Assembly: GCA_021777845.1 (NCBI GenBank)
Contig: JAJYDB010000018.1
Span: 1 to 33,124 of the forward strand
Reading direction: 5' to 3'
Source: Planctomycetota bacterium
Lineage (GTDB): Bacteria; Planctomycetota; Planctomycetia; Isosphaerales; Isosphaeraceae
Length of the DNA stretch: 33,124 bases
This document shows positions 2 to 12,760 of the stretch, piece after piece; the stretch's first letter is position 1, and each line of letters begins with the position of its first letter. The position numbers and the translations under genes are program-made. The notes beneath the pieces are model-generated. The model did no database searches, was not told the origin of the DNA, and worked only from the letters and a program-made list of their open reading frames with translations.

Positions 2-859
2 GGCGAACGCGTTGAAATTCAGAGCGATCCGAATCTGACGTTGAATCAAATCACGGTCCGACGCGGCGTGGAAGGCACAACGCCCGCGACCGGCTCGGTC
101 GGCGACGTTCTGCAGTTGATCGGCAACAGCCGGACCGGCGCTGAAATCGACCAGAGCGGCATCGCCCTCGCGCCGATTGGAGTTTCTCAATTCTGTCAGA
201 CCTGGCAACACCCGGTCCAGGTCGGCGGTTCTTTGCAGGCGTCGCGTGCCTTCCAGACGTCCTCGGGCGTGCGCACGCCGTTCGACCAAACCAAGATGGA
301 CGCGCTCCAAAACCTCATGGACGACATGGAGTCGACCTCGTATTACGGCCTCGGCGACGATCCCGCGGTCGCGCTTCGTCCGAAGCAAAAGGGGCTGCGC
401 ACCCTGATTCAGACCAACAAGACCACCGCGCCGGTCAACGCCGGAATGTACCGCGCCACCGACTTTATTCGCGATACGCTCCAGGCCTGTCGACAAAACG
501 GCGGCGACCCCGACGTGTTGTTGCTGTCGTCGAATTTCATGACCGGTCTGGCGACCTGGGGTCAAGCGGTTCAACGAATCGACGCCGGCGTGAACATCTT
601 TGGCACACCGATCAACGTCTTCGAAGCTCCGTTCCTCGGCGGCGTCTCGATCATCGAAGCTCCTCTACTCAAACCCTACTCGGCGGCCTGTCTCACCTCG
701 AGCGAAGTCCGACTCAGAATGAAGCGCAACGAATTCTGGAATCCGCGCGGCACCCGCGGCGACGCTTTCGAAGGCGACTGGATCGCCGAGGGCGCCATCG
801 AGCTCGAAAACGAAATGCATCACGCCTGGGTCGAGGGAATCACCGCATTTTCGGCGTGA
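2..859 (+). CDS. Phage major capsid protein, DUF5309/SU10-like (5' end cut)
   Basis: The frame is open from the first bases of the window, so the gene starts upstream. A TTG at 41 only looks like a start because the window cuts there. About 285 residues are visible. The first visible part is a beta-rich stretch with an R-R-G-V-E-G-T motif, which resembles the insertion loop of DUF5309-type capsid proteins. Next come a segment rich in short helices (YYGLGDDPAV) and a repeated region containing LLLSSNFMTGL. The C-terminus (GDWIAEGAIELENEMHHAW) is like the last strand-and-helix region of HK97-fold capsids of this family. It would form the icosahedral shell. It is the first gene of a long same-strand series of structural genes, as expected for a head-to-tail module. 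The family assignment is from sequence memory, not a search. Confidence 0.72.
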   Translation, partial: GERVEIQSDPNLTLNQITVRRGVEGTTPATGSVGDVLQLIGNSRTGAEIDQSGIALAPIGVSQFCQTWQHPVQVGGSLQASRAFQTSSGVRTPFDQTKMDALQNLMDDMESTSYYGLGDDPAVALRPKQKGLRTLIQTNKTTAPVNAGMYRATDFIRDTLQACRQNGGDPDVLLLSSNFMTGLATWGQAVQRIDAGVNIFGTPINVFEAPFLGGVSIIEAPLLKPYSAACLTSSEVRLRMKRNEFWNPRGTRGDAFEGDWIAEGAIELENEMHHAWVEGITAFSA

Positions 860-4576: not shown

Positions 4577-4984
4577 ATGCCCGGTTTCTTCACTGATTAC
4601 TCCAATAATAAAGTCCTCGACCAGTTCTTCGGCGCGGTCGCTTTTACTCCACCCGGAACGCTCTACGTCGGACTTTCGCAATCGACCTCGAACAAGGCGG
4701 GGTCGATCGTCGAACCGACGGGCGGCGGCTATGCCAGGATTGCGGTCGCGAACAGCTTGACGACCTTTCCCGCGGCCGCGGCAGGCACGAAGTCAAACGC
4801 CGCAGTGATTGCGTTTCCGTCGCCGTCGGGAGCTTGGGGGACACTCCAAAGCGTGTTTCTCGCCGATGCGGCGGTGGGCGGGAATGTGCTCGCGATGGCC
4901 GACCTGGCAACCTCGAAAACTATCAATGCGGGTGCGCCCTCGCCTACGATTGCGGCCGGCGCTTTGTTCTTCTCCCACACCTGA
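4577..4984 (+). CDS. Phage tail fibre-type small protein
   Basis: This 135-aa protein starts at the ATG at 4577, which has a strong AAGGGG six bases upstream. The frame is open further upstream, but that stretch overlaps the beta-helix gene and is Arg-rich shadow sequence. The motif TPPGTLYVGLSQSTSNKAGS followed by EPTGGGYARIAVAN is characteristic of a small family annotated as phage tail fibre or tail-associated protein. The C-terminal half alternates hydrophobic strands (NVLAMADLATSKTINAGAPS). It is likely a compact beta-sandwich in a fibre or decoration protein. It lies 14 bases after the beta-helix gene and 7 before the next, so the three are probably translated from one message. The family resemblance is good; the biochemical role is unknown. 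Confidence 0.7.
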   Translation: MPGFFTDYSNNKVLDQFFGAVAFTPPGTLYVGLSQSTSNKAGSIVEPTGGGYARIAVANSLTTFPAAAAGTKSNAAVIAFPSPSGAWGTLQSVFLADAAVGGNVLAMADLATSKTINAGAPSPTIAAGALFFSHT

Positions 4985-5733: not shown

Positions 5734-6270
5734 ATGAGTTCGCTGCCGTACAACGCGCCGACGTTTTTCTCGACATCCTACTTTGCGCCGGTCGGGTCGC
5801 CGCCGGTCGCGACGTTTGACCCTTCGACGGGCTATCGCGACAGCGACGCCTTTGACGCGATCGTCTCCGCTCTCGAAGCTACCGGTGAATTCGCGGCCGT
5901 CACACTCGCCGACAACTTCGCCCGCTGCGGCGCCGGCGCGCCCTCGCCGCTTGCTTCGGTCAACCCCGTCGGTTGGGAGGAATTCGACGAAACCGACCCC
6001 ACGACCCTGGTCCGACGCGTCGACTTCGTCGTCGCTCTGCAAGTCCGCGAGGACGACTTCTCGGCCGCCTTCAAGGAGATCGACCGCCTCGCGTCCATCG
6101 TCCAAGACGCCCTCGACGGTTCGAACCTCGGCGGCGGTTGCCTGCCGGGATTGACGTTGGTCCGCCGCGGCCGGTTTGATCGCGAGGCGCGACACCCCGA
6201 AATGCGGCTGCAACTCGCGGGCGAGTTTTCTTACCTCGTGGCCAACCAGTCGAACCACAACGTTTCCTGA
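5734..6270 (+). CDS. Probable tail completion/terminator protein
   Basis: This 178-aa protein was assigned ATG 5734 because GGAG (5723-5726) lies seven bases upstream. A TTG at 5719 would place the ribosome site inside the gene. The core alternates helix and strand: SDAFDAIVSALEATGEF, then the strand VDFVVALQVREDDF, then FKEIDRLASIVQDALDGS, ending with another strand pair (LQLAGEFSYLVA). A helix, an F/A-V-x-L strand, then a paired helix is the usual layout of tail terminator or neck proteins. These sit immediately before the tail tube gene, as here. No direct sequence family is recognised, so the call rests on fold impression and synteny. Alternatives are a head-closure or minor tail protein. 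Confidence 0.5.
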   Translation: MSSLPYNAPTFFSTSYFAPVGSPPVATFDPSTGYRDSDAFDAIVSALEATGEFAAVTLADNFARCGAGAPSPLASVNPVGWEEFDETDPTTLVRRVDFVVALQVREDDFSAAFKEIDRLASIVQDALDGSNLGGGCLPGLTLVRRGRFDREARHPEMRLQLAGEFSYLVANQSNHNVS

Positions 6271-6295: not shown

Positions 6296-6733
6296 ATGCC
6301 TGCCACGAAAAGACTCATGAATTGGACCGGCGTGACCTTCACGCCGACCGGAGGAACCGCCGTGTCGATCACCGGCGTGACTTCGATTTCGTTCGAATCG
6401 GGCGGCAGTCTCGCCAAGTTTTCCGGCGACGGCGACCGCTTTAGTACGACCGTCGTCAACGACTTCAACGATCCCTCGGTCGTTGTTCAGGCCGCCGATC
6501 TCGCGTCGATTCGCGCCAACCCCGTCGGTACCGCGGGCACCTTCACCGCGACGCACAACGACGCAAAAAACGGACTCGGCTCCGGGGCGATGACCTACAC
6601 GCTGACGAACGCCGTCGTCGCAAACAACCCGATTCACGGCGGGCATCGTCAATTCGGCCTCGGCACCTTGACGCTGGCCGCGTACTCGTCCGACGGCGTC
6701 ACCAACCCGCTTTCGATCGCCATCGCACCCTAA
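6296..6733 (+). CDS. Probable major tail tube protein
   Basis: This 145-aa all-beta protein is preceded by AAAGAG nine bases upstream of ATG 6296. The strand pattern (TGVTFTPTGGTAVSITGVTS, then ISFESGG, then FSTTVVNDFNDPSVVVQAAD) ends with GTLTLAAYSSDG. This resembles the tail tube fold, including the x-I-T-x-V-x-S entry and the long loop before the D-x-N-D-P strand. Length and position (after a terminator-like gene, before small helical genes) fit a siphophage-type tail module. It would polymerise around a tape measure to form the tail tube. The fold is inferred by eye; a structure search would decide between tube protein and a decoration protein. Confidence 0.55.
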   Translation: MPATKRLMNWTGVTFTPTGGTAVSITGVTSISFESGGSLAKFSGDGDRFSTTVVNDFNDPSVVVQAADLASIRANPVGTAGTFTATHNDAKNGLGSGAMTYTLTNAVVANNPIHGGHRQFGLGTLTLAAYSSDGVTNPLSIAIAP

Positions 6734-6748: not shown

Positions 6749-7027
6749 ATGCGCGTCGACTCGACGAATCCAACCGCCGTACGAACCCCCGCCGCGTATG
6801 CGGGAGCCGGAGACGCCTGCGCGCGGGCCGCTCGACTCCAAGCCGAGTTTGGACCTCTCCTCCGCGTTGGGCGGATTTTCATTCGCAATCAAGGCAGTGA
6901 GCATTTTATCACGGGAAATCCCCACGACACGCTGTTCGAACCCGTCGGATCGCCGAACGCGGGTCAACCGCGCTACGAATGGCGAGATCGCGGCGATGGA
7001 GTCCTGCATGGATACCCCTTGCTCTGA
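6749..7027 (+). CDS. Small phage protein after the tail tube, possible frameshift partner
   Basis: This 92-aa protein was chosen because its frame has the GC-rich third positions of its neighbours and a GAGA eight bases before ATG 6749. The overlapping frame from 6744 is also open but gives an Arg/Pro-rich stretch unlike a protein. The N-terminus has an Ala-rich helix (AGAGDACARAARLQAEFGPL). The rest is beta-rich (GRIFIRNQGSEHFITGNPHD, then RYEWRDRGDGVLHGYPLL). The family is unknown. Its last 20 bases overlap the next gene in another frame. A CCC-T site (7016-7019) just before its stop would permit a +1 shift into that gene. It sits where many tailed phages encode frameshifted tail-assembly chaperones. 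Confidence 0.6.
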   Translation: MRVDSTNPTAVRTPAAYAGAGDACARAARLQAEFGPLLRVGRIFIRNQGSEHFITGNPHDTLFEPVGSPNAGQPRYEWRDRGDGVLHGYPLL

Positions 7028-7571
7028 ACGCTCGCCGCGCGGATCGACGCGCAAGGTCGCGACGCCTGAAGGGATACCGGTAACGCTCTCCGACGGGCGA
7101 CGCCGCTACCTCGCCGAACCGACGTTCCGAGCGCAAGCGCCGACCCTGACGACCCCCGACGTAGACTTCGCTCTCGACGCGATCTTCGACGATTTGGTCG
7201 TCCGGCGCTCCGCTTCGTTGCGCGACGTTTGGTCCGCCGCGCGCACCCTCCTGCTCGCGAATTACGACCTGGACGACGACCAGGTCGCCGAGCTGCTTCG
7301 GATCGAAGAGGGGGGCGAGCAGTCGGCCCGCATGCTCGCGGGAAGTGTTGTCGAGGCTTTGTTGGGTTCCGATGCGCACGCGAATTCCTACACCGCCTGG
7401 GTCCGCGCCAGTTTGCTCGCAAACGGCTTGGGAGAGACTGAAATCCCCGCACGCGACCTTCCCAGCGTGCTCGCGGTGTTGGTAGCCACGCAGAGAACAA
7501 TTCCGTTGACCGAGTTCGCGGATGCGTGTCGTTGTGCGCAGGAATCCTCACAATTGGAGACTCTCTTATGA
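7008..7571 (+). CDS. Tail-assembly-chaperone-position protein A
   Basis: This 187-aa protein was assigned the ATG at 7008, with GGAG six bases upstream (6998-7001). An ATG at 6996 is an alternative. After a polar start, residues about 22-45 read IPVTLSDGRRRYLAEPTF. A mostly alpha-helical region follows (ALDAIFDDLVVRRSASLRD, then ARTLLLANYDLDDDQVAELL). This last stretch resembles a part of the next protein (LLTRAHEVDSDMASTLLDI), suggesting tandem paralogues. The position after the tail tube gene and before the tape-measure slot is that of tail assembly chaperones, which are small and helical. Function is inferred from position. It overlaps the preceding gene by 20 bases and the following gene by ATGA. 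Confidence 0.6.
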   Translation: MDTPCSERSPRGSTRKVATPEGIPVTLSDGRRRYLAEPTFRAQAPTLTTPDVDFALDAIFDDLVVRRSASLRDVWSAARTLLLANYDLDDDQVAELLRIEEGGEQSARMLAGSVVEALLGSDAHANSYTAWVRASLLANGLGETEIPARDLPSVLAVLVATQRTIPLTEFADACRCAQESSQLETLL

Positions 7572-7990
7572 GCGACTCGGTCGAAGCCGCAACCCCAGAA
7601 ACCACTTGTCGGGCCGGCGTTGACGCCGTTCCCATTCTGCTCGCAGACAACAACTTCTGGGGTTTGGCGGTTCCTGGAGTCTGGCTCCGGCCTCATTTCG
7701 TCGACGGAGTCGACGACGACGGGCGTGCGATCTCGCGTGTGGAAATCGTCCGCGAACACGAGTCGCTCCAATTAACGGCAGACGTTCTTCGATCGTTGGA
7801 GGATCCGGCGGCGTGTTTCGAGGCGGTTAAAAAGCTGGCGGTCGAACTCTTGACGCGGGCACATGAAGTTGACTCCGACATGGCGTCGACTCTCCTCGAC
7901 ATCCCCGAGCAACGACTCTCCGACTGGACCGCCGAGGTGCTCGCAGTCGCCGTCGCTGAACGATCAGTCCAAACCGAGACGCATTCATGA
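7568..7990 (+). CDS. Tail-assembly-chaperone-position protein B
   Basis: This 140-aa acidic protein starts at ATG 7568, overlapping the previous stop (ATGA), with GGAG (7556-7559) eight bases upstream. Residues about 20-42 (VPILLADNNFWGLAVPGVWL) correspond to the L-x-D-x-x-x-x-x-L-A-x-P segment of the preceding protein. The helical C-terminal half (CFEAVKKLAVELLTRAHEVD, then STLLDIPEQRLSDWTAEVLA) follows the same plan. Proteins of this kind, short, helical and doubled between tube and tape measure genes, are commonly assembly chaperones that keep the tape measure soluble. No catalytic motif, signal or membrane segment is present. The role is inferred. It ends in another ATGA overlap. Confidence 0.6.
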   Translation: MSDSVEAATPETTCRAGVDAVPILLADNNFWGLAVPGVWLRPHFVDGVDDDGRAISRVEIVREHESLQLTADVLRSLEDPAACFEAVKKLAVELLTRAHEVDSDMASTLLDIPEQRLSDWTAEVLAVAVAERSVQTETHS

Positions 7991-8799
7991 AAAGCGGTTC
8001 AAGACCAAAGCACACGGATGGACGCGACCTTTCCGGAGTGAATCGCGAGTCCTCGCGACGCGATTCAACGCGGCCGGAGACGATCGTCGCCGAGGCCGTC
8101 CGACACTTTTTTGAGCATCGTCGCACGTCCGAGGCAGTCGATAACTCCAGCCGCCCTCGATTCGATGCCGGCAGTCGCGTCGAGACGGTTCCACCGCCGG
8201 GACGACTTTTTGGAGAGTCGAGTGCGGTACGTCCACCGGATTCGGACGACTCTTCTCATTCGGTACACGCTCACGGCGCAGCAGGCTCGTCGCGCATCCC
8301 GACCGAGCCGCATCCGAGAGTGCACGTGTTCCACGAGCACGCACATGGAACCAGCCGCGTGCAGTCGCACATTCCTTCCGCTGCCTCGCGGCCGTCTCGA
8401 CACGAGAGCCGAACCTCGCTGGAGGCTCCCGCTCGAATGGCGTCCTACGCACCGTCAAGGCACACGAAACACGAGGCCGCGGCAGAGCACGGAGCGCGAC
8501 TTCGAAGTGTCGAGCGCGCGTCCTCGGAGGCCGCGACCTCGCACCTCGACGGACTGCTCGCGCGTCTGTCTCGGGGCGGGCGCGAAGGTTCGCCGGAGGG
8601 GGGAAAGCAGGCGTCGGAGAGTCGCGCAGGCCGCGGACAATCCGAGTTCGTCGAAGGCGGAAATAAAAACTCCACTCCAGGTCAAACGTGCGATTCCTCT
8701 CGAACGAATGAGTTGCTCCAACAATTAGTCGACCTTGTGCGCAAGAGCCCGAAGGGGTTCCTACCCACCGGCGCGCAGTATGGAGCAGGCGTAAAATAA
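7987..8799 (+). CDS. Low-complexity S/R/H/E-rich protein in the tape-measure slot
   Basis: This 270-aa protein starts at ATG 7987 within an ATGA overlap and ends in a TAATG overlap with the next gene, so it is locked into the operon. Its composition is extreme: rich in Ser, Arg, His, Glu, Ala and Pro, with no evident globular core over residues 1-235. Only short helical stretches are seen (RPETIVAEAVRHFFEHRR near 30-47, then SHLDGLLARLSRGG near 180-195). The C-terminus (TNELLQQLVDLVRKSPKGFL) is an ordered helix. It lies between the chaperone-position genes and distal tail genes, where a tape measure of 600 or more residues is usual. It could be a very short or disordered tape measure substitute, or an unrelated linker. 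The antisense frame is open too but is Arg-rich and lacks a ribosome site. Confidence 0.55.
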   Translation: MKSGSRPKHTDGRDLSGVNRESSRRDSTRPETIVAEAVRHFFEHRRTSEAVDNSSRPRFDAGSRVETVPPPGRLFGESSAVRPPDSDDSSHSVHAHGAAGSSRIPTEPHPRVHVFHEHAHGTSRVQSHIPSAASRPSRHESRTSLEAPARMASYAPSRHTKHEAAAEHGARLRSVERASSEAATSHLDGLLARLSRGGREGSPEGGKQASESRAGRGQSEFVEGGNKNSTPGQTCDSSRTNELLQQLVDLVRKSPKGFLPTGAQYGAGVK

Positions 8800-9170
8800 T
8801 GATACCCACTTACAACGGACTTCCGATTTTTGGTTATTCGGTCAGCATGACAACGGTCGACGTACCTCGCGAAAAGCAGATCAATTCGTATTTCGGGCTG
8901 AGCGGATTGGAGATTCTGGACGGCGGCTCGCGCGGTCGGTGGACCTACGCGCGGGGTTTGCTCTCAGGGGATACTCCCGCGTTGTTGGCGATGTCGGAAA
9001 TGCAGTTTCGCTCGTTTAACGACGGCATTGCGCGTGTGCTCGTCGATACTCTGGGTTCGATCTGGCAAGAGGTGCGCCTTGATGCGTTTCAGCCGATCGG
9101 ACGCGTAAGTCAGTCGCCGTCGGGAGTGTGCTTTCGAGCCTATAACGCCCGATTCTTTCATCTCGAGTGA
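8799..9170 (+). CDS. Small distal-tail-type protein
   Basis: This 123-aa protein has its ATG in a TAATG overlap with the preceding stop, so translation is probably coupled. The N-terminus (YNGLPIFGYSVSMTTVDVPR) is followed by GRWTYARGLLSGDTPALLAM. The second half is beta-rich (ARVLVDTLGSIWQEVRLDAF, then CFRAYNARFFHLE). The layout of short strands framing a loop, followed by an aromatic end, suggests a small beta-barrel such as a distal tail or minor tail protein. No known family is recognised. The gene is followed after six bases by an FN3-like protein gene, which fits tip or hub components. Confidence 0.55.
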   Translation: MIPTYNGLPIFGYSVSMTTVDVPREKQINSYFGLSGLEILDGGSRGRWTYARGLLSGDTPALLAMSEMQFRSFNDGIARVLVDTLGSIWQEVRLDAFQPIGRVSQSPSGVCFRAYNARFFHLE

Positions 9171-9176
9171 GCGCCG

Positions 9177-9893
9177 ATGTCATTTTCGCAGTCAACGATC
9201 AACACTGTTGCGGTTGTCCCCGCGGATGCCGAGCTCGACGTCTCTTGGACCTCGACGGCGCCCGCGGGGTCGGTCTATCAAGTTTACGTCGACCGTCGAT
9301 TGAATTGGGCCGGCCGTGCGCAGCGCTGCCGCGTTCCGATTCCCGCCGCGGCGGAGGGACGCAATGTTTGGGTCGAAGTCGGGACCGTCGCTTCGAACGA
9401 AGCAACTATCGATTTTTCCGCGCAGCTCAACAGTCCGGGCCAAAGCGGCGACTTCGCTCAATTGAGCTGGCTGGGCGGTACGTATCTCGACTCGCTGGGA
9501 AAGAACGACGTCGCGGGGTTCCAAATCTTCAGCTCGCCGGCGGCGGGGCAGCCGGTCTCTTGGGTCGCGCCGATCGACACGGTGTCGGCTTATCCGGGCG
9601 GTTGGATCAGCGACGGTTTCGGCTTGGGCGGCTTCGGACAAGGGGGATTCGGCCGCGCCGCCACGACTTACGAGTGGACCAGCGGCCCGCTGGCCTCGGG
9701 AGTCTGGCAATTCGCCGTCGCACCCTTTGACCACGCGGGCAACCTGCAGACAACCGCGGCCGCGATCGGAGTCGCGATCAACCGTGCGCCGCGTCCTCCG
9801 GCGGCGACCGCCCAAGGGGATCGGCTCACTTACAGTTACTCGGGACCCTCGTCGCGCCAAGTGACCCTCAACTGGTCGGCGAGCCCTTCTTGA
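9177..9893 (+). CDS. FN3-like tail protein with a glycine-rich loop
   Basis: This 238-aa protein starts at ATG 9177, six bases after the previous stop. Residues about 10-80 form a beta-sandwich (LDVSWTSTAPAGSVYQVYVD, a typical FN3 strand pair). Residues about 90-200 hold a second, containing AGFQIFSSPAAGQPVSW and WQFAVAPFDHAGNLQTTAAA. A glycine-rich stretch at 147-160 (GFGLGGFGQGGFGR) interrupts it. The C-terminus (LTYSYSGPSSRQVTLNWS) looks like the start of a third unit. I recall this glycine loop from planctomycete phage-like proteins. FN3 domains in tail proteins serve as spacers or weak carbohydrate binders. No enzyme motif is seen. It parallels the FN3-like gene at 1688 but the two are not close copies. 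Confidence 0.65.
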   Translation: MSFSQSTINTVAVVPADAELDVSWTSTAPAGSVYQVYVDRRLNWAGRAQRCRVPIPAAAEGRNVWVEVGTVASNEATIDFSAQLNSPGQSGDFAQLSWLGGTYLDSLGKNDVAGFQIFSSPAAGQPVSWVAPIDTVSAYPGGWISDGFGLGGFGQGGFGRAATTYEWTSGPLASGVWQFAVAPFDHAGNLQTTAAAIGVAINRAPRPPAATAQGDRLTYSYSGPSSRQVTLNWSASPS

Positions 9894-9911: not shown

Positions 9912-10628
9912 ATGGCAACGACTTACACGCAAAATCTTCAGCTCCAAATGCCCGGCACCGCCGACCGAAACTGGGACGTCGCACTCAATGCGAACTCCAC
10001 TCTCGTCGACACCCTGAGTGCGCTCGGCGGCCTTGCCGTCGCGATGAACGAGGTTCCCAGTGCTTCACTAAACGTGCGCGTCGCGTCGGGACAATACGTC
10101 AACGGCGAGGGCGTTGTCGCATCGTACGCCGGGCAGGCGCCGTTCGCTCTCGCTCCCTCGTCGACGAGCTGTCTCTGGCTGACCGACACCGGTACGCTCA
10201 CGACCGGCGCGGCCTTTCCCGCAACGTCGCACGTGCGACTCGCCTCCGTCGTCACCGGCGCAACGACGATCTCCCAGGTCACCGACCAACGCGTGCAGTG
10301 CCGCAGCGCCGGCACCGGGCTCGGCTTCGTCCTCAAATCGGGCGACACGATGAACGGCACGCTCTCAATCGCAAATTCCTCCACCGCCGCGGTTGCCTTT
10401 CAGTTCAACCCGAACACGCCCGCGATCGGCTTCTTCGGTGCGACGGCCACTGGTCAGGCCGCGAAAGTCACCCTGACCGACAGCACCACCGGCACCGCGG
10501 GCAGCGTTTTGAGCGACGTCGGCACCAGTTTCAATCAGACGGTCCTCGACGCGAACTTCGCCACGATCGCCTCCAAGATCAACGCATTGATCAGCGTCTT
10601 ACAATCGTATGGTCTTATGTCTAATTAA
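9912..10628 (+). CDS. Tail fibre-like protein
   Basis: This 238-aa protein has GAGG seven bases before ATG 9912. The N-terminus, TYTQNLQLQMPGTADRNWDV followed by ALNANSTLVD, is a motif common to tail fibre or short-tail-fibre proteins of tailed phages. The middle is beta-rich (VRVASGQYVNGEGVVASYAG) and contains LKSGDTMNGTLSI, the recurrent K-x-G-D-T-M-x-G-x-L repeat of phage tail fibres. A C-terminal helix (NFATIASKINALISVLQSYG) could trimerise. It would make up a slender fibre at the tail tip. The gene ends in TAATG shared with the hub gene. The fibre assignment is good from these motifs; the receptor is unknown. Confidence 0.72.
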   Translation: MATTYTQNLQLQMPGTADRNWDVALNANSTLVDTLSALGGLAVAMNEVPSASLNVRVASGQYVNGEGVVASYAGQAPFALAPSSTSCLWLTDTGTLTTGAAFPATSHVRLASVVTGATTISQVTDQRVQCRSAGTGLGFVLKSGDTMNGTLSIANSSTAAVAFQFNPNTPAIGFFGATATGQAAKVTLTDSTTGTAGSVLSDVGTSFNQTVLDANFATIASKINALISVLQSYGLMSN

Positions 10629-12760
10629 TGGATACGCTCATGGCCGCATTCGCTTCAATCGATGTTACCTCGCCCTCGCTTGGGCGGCTTCCGACGCAGG
10701 TGGGCGTTTACAGGCTTGTGGGCGACGTGCCGGGCGACTATCAATATCTCCCGAACGTCCGCGTGCTCAAAATCACGCAAAACGAGGGCGCCGACCCCGG
10801 CCACGCGCGATTTCGATACGTGTTCGACGAATTCAACCCGCCGGGCGTTCCGAATTCGTTCCAGCAAGCGCTCTCGGTGAACGTCAATCTGCCCGGCGTC
10901 GTTCAAAACGACGACCGGCTGACCGTCTTCGCGTTCAACCCCGACGGTTCCCGCACCGCCCTTTTCGACGGATTCGCGCTTGTACCCGAACTGAACCTCT
11001 CGCCTTCGGAGGAAATGGTCGCTTTCACCGCGGTTGGAGTCGCCGTGCGCTGTTGGGATACTCCAATCGGCGGCGCGCTGATGCGCAACGCGGATACTCC
11101 AACGAAGGTCGTCGACCTCGCGACCGACGTCCCCACCTACTTCAATCCCGCGGGGCTCCCGAACGCCACACCCGCCGGAGCCGACGCGTCCGACACGTAC
11201 GGAAACACGTATCCGACTTTTCTCGACCCGCTCGTCATGCGCGACCCCGACGTCCGACGACCTTGGACGCTCTCGATGGCCGCGCGCTACCTCTGCTTCC
11301 GTCACAACGCTCCACAAACTTTCGTGCAGAATCCCGACGGCCCCCTGCTCGACCAACTCCTCGACAGCCGGTCGCCCAACCTGGGTGTTTGCTTCGTCCA
11401 GAACGACTCCACAACCTACGACAGCCAACCGATCCTGGTCCCCGACTTCCCCGCGACCGGCATGCCCTGGCCCGTCGCGCTCGATCGTTTGCTCGAACCC
11501 AACGGGTTCGCCATGGTCTTCCGACTCGAAACCGACGTCGACGGGAATCCGTATACCTACCTGGATCTCTTTCGGCGTCAGGACGGATCGCCTCAGTCCT
11601 ATAAAGATTTGTACTTGCAGTTGTCCGGCCAGTCGCTCGACCCGGCTCAAACAAACCTCTTGAGCGCCCAGCTCGCCCGCGACTCGACCGCGGTCGCGAA
11701 TTCGTTTGTCGTCGACTCGCGTTTGGAGCGTTTCGAGGCTTCGTTCGTGCTCGCGCCCGGGTTTCCGATTGCGCTCGGCGACGGTGCGAGCGCCTCCTCT
11801 CTCGCCGCGTTTGACCGCAACAGCCCAGACTTCGTGCAATCCGATCACGACCAATATCGTCTCTACATTTGCGACGAAACCGGCGAAGGCCACTGGGATT
11901 TCAGTCAAGGCAAGTTCGTCGCGACGGCAACTCCACTCGATGCGGTCCTCGGCAAACCCGCAGCCAACGGCACCCCCGCGTACGTAAAACGCCGACGCCC
12001 GCCGATCGGAAGGCTGTTCACACTCGACGCGAACAACGTCCCGCTGAAAGCCTCGCTGTCGATCTCCACGGATTACGCCGGCAAGCAACCCGGCGTCTGG
12101 GACGGCACAGGCACGTGGCAGGAAGTCTTGGGCGGGTTTGAGCTGCTTTCCGACCGCCTCGGAATCTGGATCAATGCGGCCAACCCCAACAGTTGGGTGA
12201 TCGGGGCCTCAAACTCGTCAAACGCACCCTATCCCGCCGGAACGGTCCGCGGCGTCGAAGACCAGGCGAACACCTTCGCCGCTCATTTCGCGCTTCGATT
12301 GACCTGTGTGATCGAAGGCGACTACGGCCTCGACGCCCTGGCGCAACAACGCCCTTCAAGCACCTCCGCGTTCACGATTACGAGGCGAATCAACGCACGC
12401 GACCGTTACTTCAGCGATACCATCGCCCCAAACAGCGAATTCAACAACGCGAGCGAGCCGATCGTTACCCGCAACGACGCCCAAGACGCACTCGCCGAGG
12501 CCGAAGCCTATCGGCTGGCGCGCGAAGCGGGCGAAGTGGCCGGCAGCGCGGTCGTGCCGCGACTCACGCTCGCCTATCGGATCGGCGACCGCATCCAGTC
12601 GATTCAAGGACGCGGCCTTTCGCTCCGGACCAACGCCGGCGCGCCCTCGGAGGAAGGCGAAGTCTTTCCCGCCGTCGTCGGATTGACTTGGGGTTTTGAG
12701 CATCAACAACATACGACGCTGTTATTGTCCGATCAACGCGCACTTTTGGGACGATCATGA
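10628..12760 (+). CDS. Large tail hub/baseplate-like protein
   Basis: This 710-aa protein is the second largest of the cluster and starts in a TAATG overlap (an ATG at 10640 is a possible alternative). Residues about 30-110 (LPNVRVLKITQNEGADPGHA, then RFRYVFDEF, then NDDRLTVFAFNPDG) resemble the first beta-barrel of tail hub proteins of the T4 gp27 kind. The sequence continues with VAFTAVGVAVRCWDTPIGG. A middle part of about 200-360 has RRPWTLSMAARYLCF and FRLETDVDGNPYTYLDLFRR, the latter typical of hub domain transitions. The last third is helix and strand mixed, with EAEAYRLAREAGEVAGSAVV followed by LTLAYRIGDRIQSIQGRGL. This last element matches the closing domain of hub proteins. Signal and membrane segments are absent. 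The hub role is inferred. Confidence 0.62.
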   Translation: MDTLMAAFASIDVTSPSLGRLPTQVGVYRLVGDVPGDYQYLPNVRVLKITQNEGADPGHARFRYVFDEFNPPGVPNSFQQALSVNVNLPGVVQNDDRLTVFAFNPDGSRTALFDGFALVPELNLSPSEEMVAFTAVGVAVRCWDTPIGGALMRNADTPTKVVDLATDVPTYFNPAGLPNATPAGADASDTYGNTYPTFLDPLVMRDPDVRRPWTLSMAARYLCFRHNAPQTFVQNPDGPLLDQLLDSRSPNLGVCFVQNDSTTYDSQPILVPDFPATGMPWPVALDRLLEPNGFAMVFRLETDVDGNPYTYLDLFRRQDGSPQSYKDLYLQLSGQSLDPAQTNLLSAQLARDSTAVANSFVVDSRLERFEASFVLAPGFPIALGDGASASSLAAFDRNSPDFVQSDHDQYRLYICDETGEGHWDFSQGKFVATATPLDAVLGKPAANGTPAYVKRRRPPIGRLFTLDANNVPLKASLSISTDYAGKQPGVWDGTGTWQEVLGGFELLSDRLGIWINAANPNSWVIGASNSSNAPYPAGTVRGVEDQANTFAAHFALRLTCVIEGDYGLDALAQQRPSSTSAFTITRRINARDRYFSDTIAPNSEFNNASEPIVTRNDAQDALAEAEAYRLAREAGEVAGSAVVPRLTLAYRIGDRIQSIQGRGLSLRTNAGAPSEEGEVFPAVVGLTWGFEHQQHTTLLLSDQRALLGRS

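Follow-up and report, generated by a model that had tools for sequence, protein, structure and literature searches.

In siphophages, the G/GT arrangement of tail assembly chaperone genes precedes the tape measure gene. Its product is expected to be long and mainly alpha-helical, usually over 500 aa. In phage TP901-1, shortening the tape measure reduces tail length linearly, with an extrapolated zero at about 127 aa, and infectivity needs the N-terminal 154 and the C-terminal 60 residues of the protein (PMC5099701). The tail of RcGTA of Rhodobacter capsulatus has five tube discs, and its tape measure is described as 113 + 83 + 20 residues (PMC7296036). Searches of open-access literature found no description of a vertically kept phage-derived particle or gene transfer agent in the Isosphaeraceae.

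The window, that is, the whole stretch of DNA analyzed (33,124 nucleotides), is the entire contig C122 of a 4.85 Mb Isosphaeraceae assembly. A phage-type gene cluster spans bases 1 to ~14 kb, and host genes lie beyond; those 3' of the cluster include a lipoyl ligase family gene and 2-oxoglutarate dehydrogenase E1. The contig start falls within the capsid gene, and the upstream part of the cluster was located on contig C179, which carries the start of the major capsid protein (MCP) gene, a scaffold-like gene, the portal and the terminase, followed by host genes. These host genes include a 687-aa ORF (PrkA-like by eye) and phosphofructokinase; phosphofructokinase, an RmlD-like gene and a pyrophosphatase are in the same order in G024, a relative from another genus. 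The following features were assigned in the window:

2..859, + strand: major capsid protein, cut by the contig start (PF17236, E=6.8e-32; gene start on C179)
4577..4984, + strand: fiber-type protein, PF23140 Gp80 (Pfam, E=2.4e-32)
5734..6270, + strand: candidate tail terminator or completion protein (weak PF11367, E=0.0029, below the cut-off; syntenic in relatives)
6296..6733, + strand: predicted tail tube protein (AlphaFold pLDDT 80.5; PDB fold matches to tail tube proteins, best E=1.2e-4)
6749..7027, + strand: small conserved gene lying after the tube protein gene and before the chaperone (relatives have homologues in this position; without Pfam match)
7020..7571, + strand: tail assembly chaperone of the GT type, an in-frame fusion of G and T whose exact start is uncertain (frameshifting G family by profile match, probability 98, E=2.2e-14; relatives carry a frameshift site)
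7568..7990, + strand: tail assembly chaperone, the second of the two and G-like (G family by profile match, probability 96, E=2.7e-9, with controls scoring far lower)
7987..8799, + strand: 270-aa disordered protein in the tape-measure slot (ORF, overlaps, slot homologues, AlphaFold)
8695..8745, + strand: confident C-terminal helix of the 270-aa protein, residues 237-253 (pLDDT 92; T-N-x-L-L-x-Q conserved in the window's clade)
8799..9170, + strand: 123-aa protein in distal-tail position (conserved in relatives; without PDB sequence match; presumed distal-tail role from position)
9177..9893, + strand: 238-aa tail protein candidate (syntenic, conserved; without Pfam or PHROGs match)
9912..10628, + strand: tail-fiber-like protein (phrog_13229, E=0.00088)
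10628..12760, + strand: 710-aa tail tip or hub candidate, the family marker (in 25 of 45 family genomes; presumed role from position)

The AlphaFold model of the 6296-6733 product is predicted to adopt a tube-protein fold, its best Foldseek matches in the PDB being Haloferax tailed virus 1 tail proteins and the tube protein of siphophage R4C. Beside this siphophage-type tube protein stands the strong match of 4577-4984 to PF23140, a podophage fiber protein family. Sequence searches of the PDB with profiles of the tube, 123-aa and hub proteins returned no meaningful match, the 710-aa protein matched nothing among cultured phages, and the G052 homologue of 9177-9893 found no match in a scan of viral sequences.

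The 270-aa ORF at 7987-8799 occupies the tape-measure slot, because a tube fold is predicted upstream and G/GT-type chaperones come directly before it. The gene follows the chaperones and precedes the distal tail gene, the latter identified by position. Profile matches to the G family support the chaperone identity of the upstream genes, as does their organization in relatives. Outside the window's clade, most relatives have CCCAAAA at the end of the chaperone gene, where a -1 shift opens a second frame; a different, T-rich shift site is found in G016 and G046b. The window's clade has G and T joined in a single frame, and the window itself, G024, G018 and G001 additionally carry a second G-like gene. 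Across 7020-7990 the frameshift is thus gone from this clade, as if gene duplication had taken its place.

The preliminary description had singled out a low-complexity 270-aa protein locked between its neighbors by ATGA and TAATG overlaps, in a window holding no protein that resembles a helical tape measure of 600 or more residues. Both observations hold. The ATG overlaps the stop of 7568-7990 (ATGA), the TAA overlaps the ATG of 8799-9170 (TAATG), serine, arginine and histidine make up 14.8%, 11.9% and 6.3% of the protein, and none of the window's proteins resembles such a tape measure. The structure and disorder predictions proposed there were run, and they describe a mostly disordered chain (FoldIndex -0.09; AlphaFold mean pLDDT 49), with 193 of 270 residues below a pLDDT of 50. 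Only 64 residues are in predicted helix, 17 of them in the sole confident helix (residues 237-253), so the protein is neither long nor mainly alpha-helical. Searches of Pfam, PHROGs, PDB chains and cultured phages with this protein returned no match.

By itself, this open frame exceeds chance expectation only weakly, since 2.3% of composition-matched random sequences stay open, and an antisense frame (7985-8809) is likewise open in the window. The codon pattern is weak: codon-position G+C is 67/58/64, atypical for the cluster and near the two neighbors in third position only, and a codon-usage gene caller did not call the gene. Against the weak single-frame statistic stand the antisense stops, the open plus-strand frames of relatives and the conserved C-terminus. 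The antisense ORF was rejected as a gene, as it is interrupted by stops in four of five relatives checked (G052 retains one open antisense frame). The slot holds an open plus-strand frame of 205-405 codons in the clusters of 17 relatives, and in one more, G043, it is cut by the contig end; the log10 product of chances over the 17 clusters is approximately -28, the species not being independent.

The search for homologues in the same slot, which had also been suggested, recovered a low-complexity protein in these 17 Isosphaeraceae clusters, 205-405 aa where complete and rich in Pro, Ser and Arg, with Ala in some. The window-clade relatives have proteins of 373, 372 and 302 aa, and the part they have in common is mainly the C-terminal T-N-x-L-L-x-Q segment. 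Proteins of the other clades (205-405 aa) have a different conserved C-terminal helix and end motif; the motif is roughly RPRxFRGRIDG in genomes of the Paludisphaera type and PPPFRG in G040 (Aquisphaera insulae) and G046b. The C-terminus is thus conserved within clades; the middle is nearly unconserved (25-36% identity, versus 64-81% for the hub). An eighteenth cluster, that of G020 (L041, G020:C1) in the window's clade, has the tube, chaperone and tip genes but no slot gene: on a 7.0-Mb contig, its fused chaperone stops a few bases before the 123-aa gene. This indicates that the slot protein is dispensable in some lineage.

The preliminary description had left three options: a tape measure located elsewhere, a very short tail, or a new type of linker. 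The first is not supported. Contig C179 was read through to host genes, and nothing like a tape measure lies there, just upstream of the window, or in the syntenic clusters. Large genes before the terminator were considered as candidates and rejected, as they match spike or tail proteins. The other two options merge in the reading favored below, in which a short tail length is inferred.

A long tape-measure-like protein is encoded by elements of this family that look mobile: seven were found in genomes, that of the window's own genome included, and eight further ones in IMG/VR. These proteins, 497-723 aa where read, were named tape measures by slot, length and composition:

Window's own genome, second element, contig C85: 599 aa
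G014, contig 114: 693 aa
G016, contig 91: 723 aa
G046, contig 128: 602 aa as called
G051, contig 15: 497-512 aa
G042: 645 aa
G015: 694 aa
Eight distinct IMG/VR contigs: 506-695 aa where full length was read

The C85 protein alone among them has a database match (phrog_1535, E=0.016). The long elements resemble the short clusters in carrying the same family of tube, chaperone, 123-aa and 710-aa tip proteins, with the same slot in most. They differ in the 497-723 aa protein, in an extra gene of ~150-180 aa (weakly like PF05069 or phrog_26) that was not seen in short clusters, in a lack of congruence with the host tree and in the tyrosine integrases near several of them. Every IMG/VR contig with a visible slot is of the long type; L144 and L148 end before the slot and are uninformative on its type. 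The tube proteins of L144 and L148 share 81-85% identity with their counterparts in the short clusters of G024 and G046b, so that both contigs may be copies from a host chromosome and not viral. Fragments of a second, related element are present in the genome of the window (G000) on C85, C218 and C221 (L051, L052, L137); C85 carries the long protein and C221 a second portal, and the three contigs presumably belong to one element.

Comparison of the ends of the short and long proteins provides a further link. The C-terminus of the window's clade scored 15.8 against the long proteins (controls at most 11.4) and the N-terminus of the G016 and G046b short versions scored 18.2 (controls at most 11.3), in both cases over a short segment and far from significant as a database match. 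When the slot proteins of every clade were pooled, the score (9.4) was unremarkable. The end similarity would support the shortening of a true tape measure.

The short clusters are vertically inherited in the Isosphaeraceae. A single-sequence search found the 710-aa hub protein in the 25 genomes noted above; a profile search added a stop-containing match of 41 residues (G056), and beyond the family it gave partial matches only, in one other family of the class. Short-type clusters occur in six of six Paludisphaera genomes (in G014, Paludisphaera soli, the contig holds only the downstream part of the cluster and the slot is not seen there), and in the hub tree short clusters branch much as their hosts do in the rpoB tree. 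Host flanks are kept across genera: an M32 carboxypeptidase homologue adjoins the cluster in G052, G014, G023, G040 and G004, and a beta-lactamase-type gene is common to the flanks in G052, G053 and G014. Head and tail genes kept by vertical descent, as expected of a gene transfer agent, are therefore observed here in the hub/rpoB agreement and common flanks, and the short cluster is probably domesticated. Neither this inheritance nor the total loss of the slot gene in one relative could be seen by the preliminary description, which had the sequence only.

The long-type elements break host congruence: the hub on contig 114 of G014 is 42% identical to that of G052, versus 97% for rpoB. A tyrosine integrase lies within about 10 kb of the long-type elements of G016 and G046 and of a remnant on a plasmid-size contig of G020, and about 10 kb upstream of the long-type element of G014; none (PF00589) lies near short clusters in the 10 genomes with a full listing. 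By the AU test on the hub tree, the short clusters are not a single clade, and the tree requires five or more changes of state. Either the tape measure was shortened repeatedly, or mobile phages acquired tail-tip genes from a resident cluster; the latter is tentatively favored because of the deep agreement with rpoB and the similar PPPFRG endings in two clades.

The cluster of G052 is followed (L063:11802-15843) by two genes, one of sigma-70 type and one of primase/helicase type, and several relatives have homologues in this position. In Paludisphaera and G013, a primase-type gene pair adjoins the cluster and calls for caution before the clusters are labeled gene transfer agents outright.

We consider it reasonably probable that the 270-aa protein is a reduced tape-measure protein in a vertically inherited, domesticated-looking head-and-tail cluster of the Isosphaeraceae, on the strength of the slot, the predicted tube fold, the chaperones, the end similarity and the long proteins in the same slot of mobile relatives. 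The predicted disorder, the conserved C-terminus and the contrast with the long tape measures suggest erosion of the tape measure to a terminal helix on a disordered chain, which would give a short tail of roughly 10-40 nm. In such a particle, the C-terminal helix would dock on the 8799-9170 and 10628-12760 proteins of the tail tip, the unfolded chain would be held by the chaperones and the tube protein (6296-6733) would polymerize around it, so that the chain sets, or tolerates, only a short tube. The tail would measure about 21 nm for 270 aa and about 12-42 nm for 205-405 aa if the TP901-1 relation applies, with zero tail at about 127 aa and an assumed 0.15 nm per further residue (the alpha-helix rise), a slope that was derived on helical tape measures and might not apply to a chain without order.

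The slot gene's loss in G020, the poor conservation of the protein's middle relative to the hub and the weak codon pattern would also fit decay, in which a tape-measure remnant is heading to loss, the cluster builds no functional tail and the frame stays open mainly via translational coupling to its neighbors. This is unlikely, as the 17 open frames are of similar size and retain a conserved C-terminal helix and end motifs, and the capsid, portal, terminase, tube and tip genes are intact across genera. It is even less probable that an unrelated disordered adaptor or assembly factor, for instance a chaperone client or a tail-channel plug that does not set length, replaced the tape measure. Such a factor could well be disordered and fast-changing, with C-terminal motifs that differ between clades, and the profile links to the long tape measures are weak; the exact slot and the above-control end similarity argue against it.

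The last alternative, that the cluster is a normal active prophage from a family of short-tailed siphophages and is not domesticated, is very improbable. The head and tail genes are complete and a primase/helicase-type gene adjoins the cluster in Paludisphaera and G013, as such a prophage would have it, but the short type is present in all six Paludisphaera genomes with common host flanks and host-tree congruence, no tyrosine integrase is nearby in ten genomes, and all IMG/VR contigs with a visible slot are of the long type. A bolder form of the reduced tape-measure reading is put forward tentatively, as possible rather than probable: the cluster would be an Isosphaeraceae gene transfer agent independent of known GTA lineages, its tape measure now a disordered chain with a docking helix, lost in one lineage, and its tail tube built with little or no length ruler.

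If the 270-aa protein is a reduced tape measure, one family of homologous tails would contain, as a series found in nature, a full tape measure, a disordered mini-ruler and no ruler at all, which would allow a direct test of tail-length control. It would also point to a phage-derived particle that the Isosphaeraceae pass on vertically and that may be a gene transfer agent.

Among known systems, the TP901-1 tape measure offers a parallel in that its ends are essential and tail length follows protein length (PMC5099701); it differs in being long and largely helical, with repeats and hydrophobic regions. Rcc01694 (g11) of RcGTA showed no sequence relation to the 270-aa protein in the PDB search, and it is described as a trimer-forming protein, half of it one long helix, whereas the 270-aa protein is predicted to be mostly disordered. 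The two are nevertheless similar in size and both have a C-terminal helix (PMC7296036). The likeness extends to an integrated cluster kept by its host and would extend to the short tail, of five discs in RcGTA (PMC7296036).
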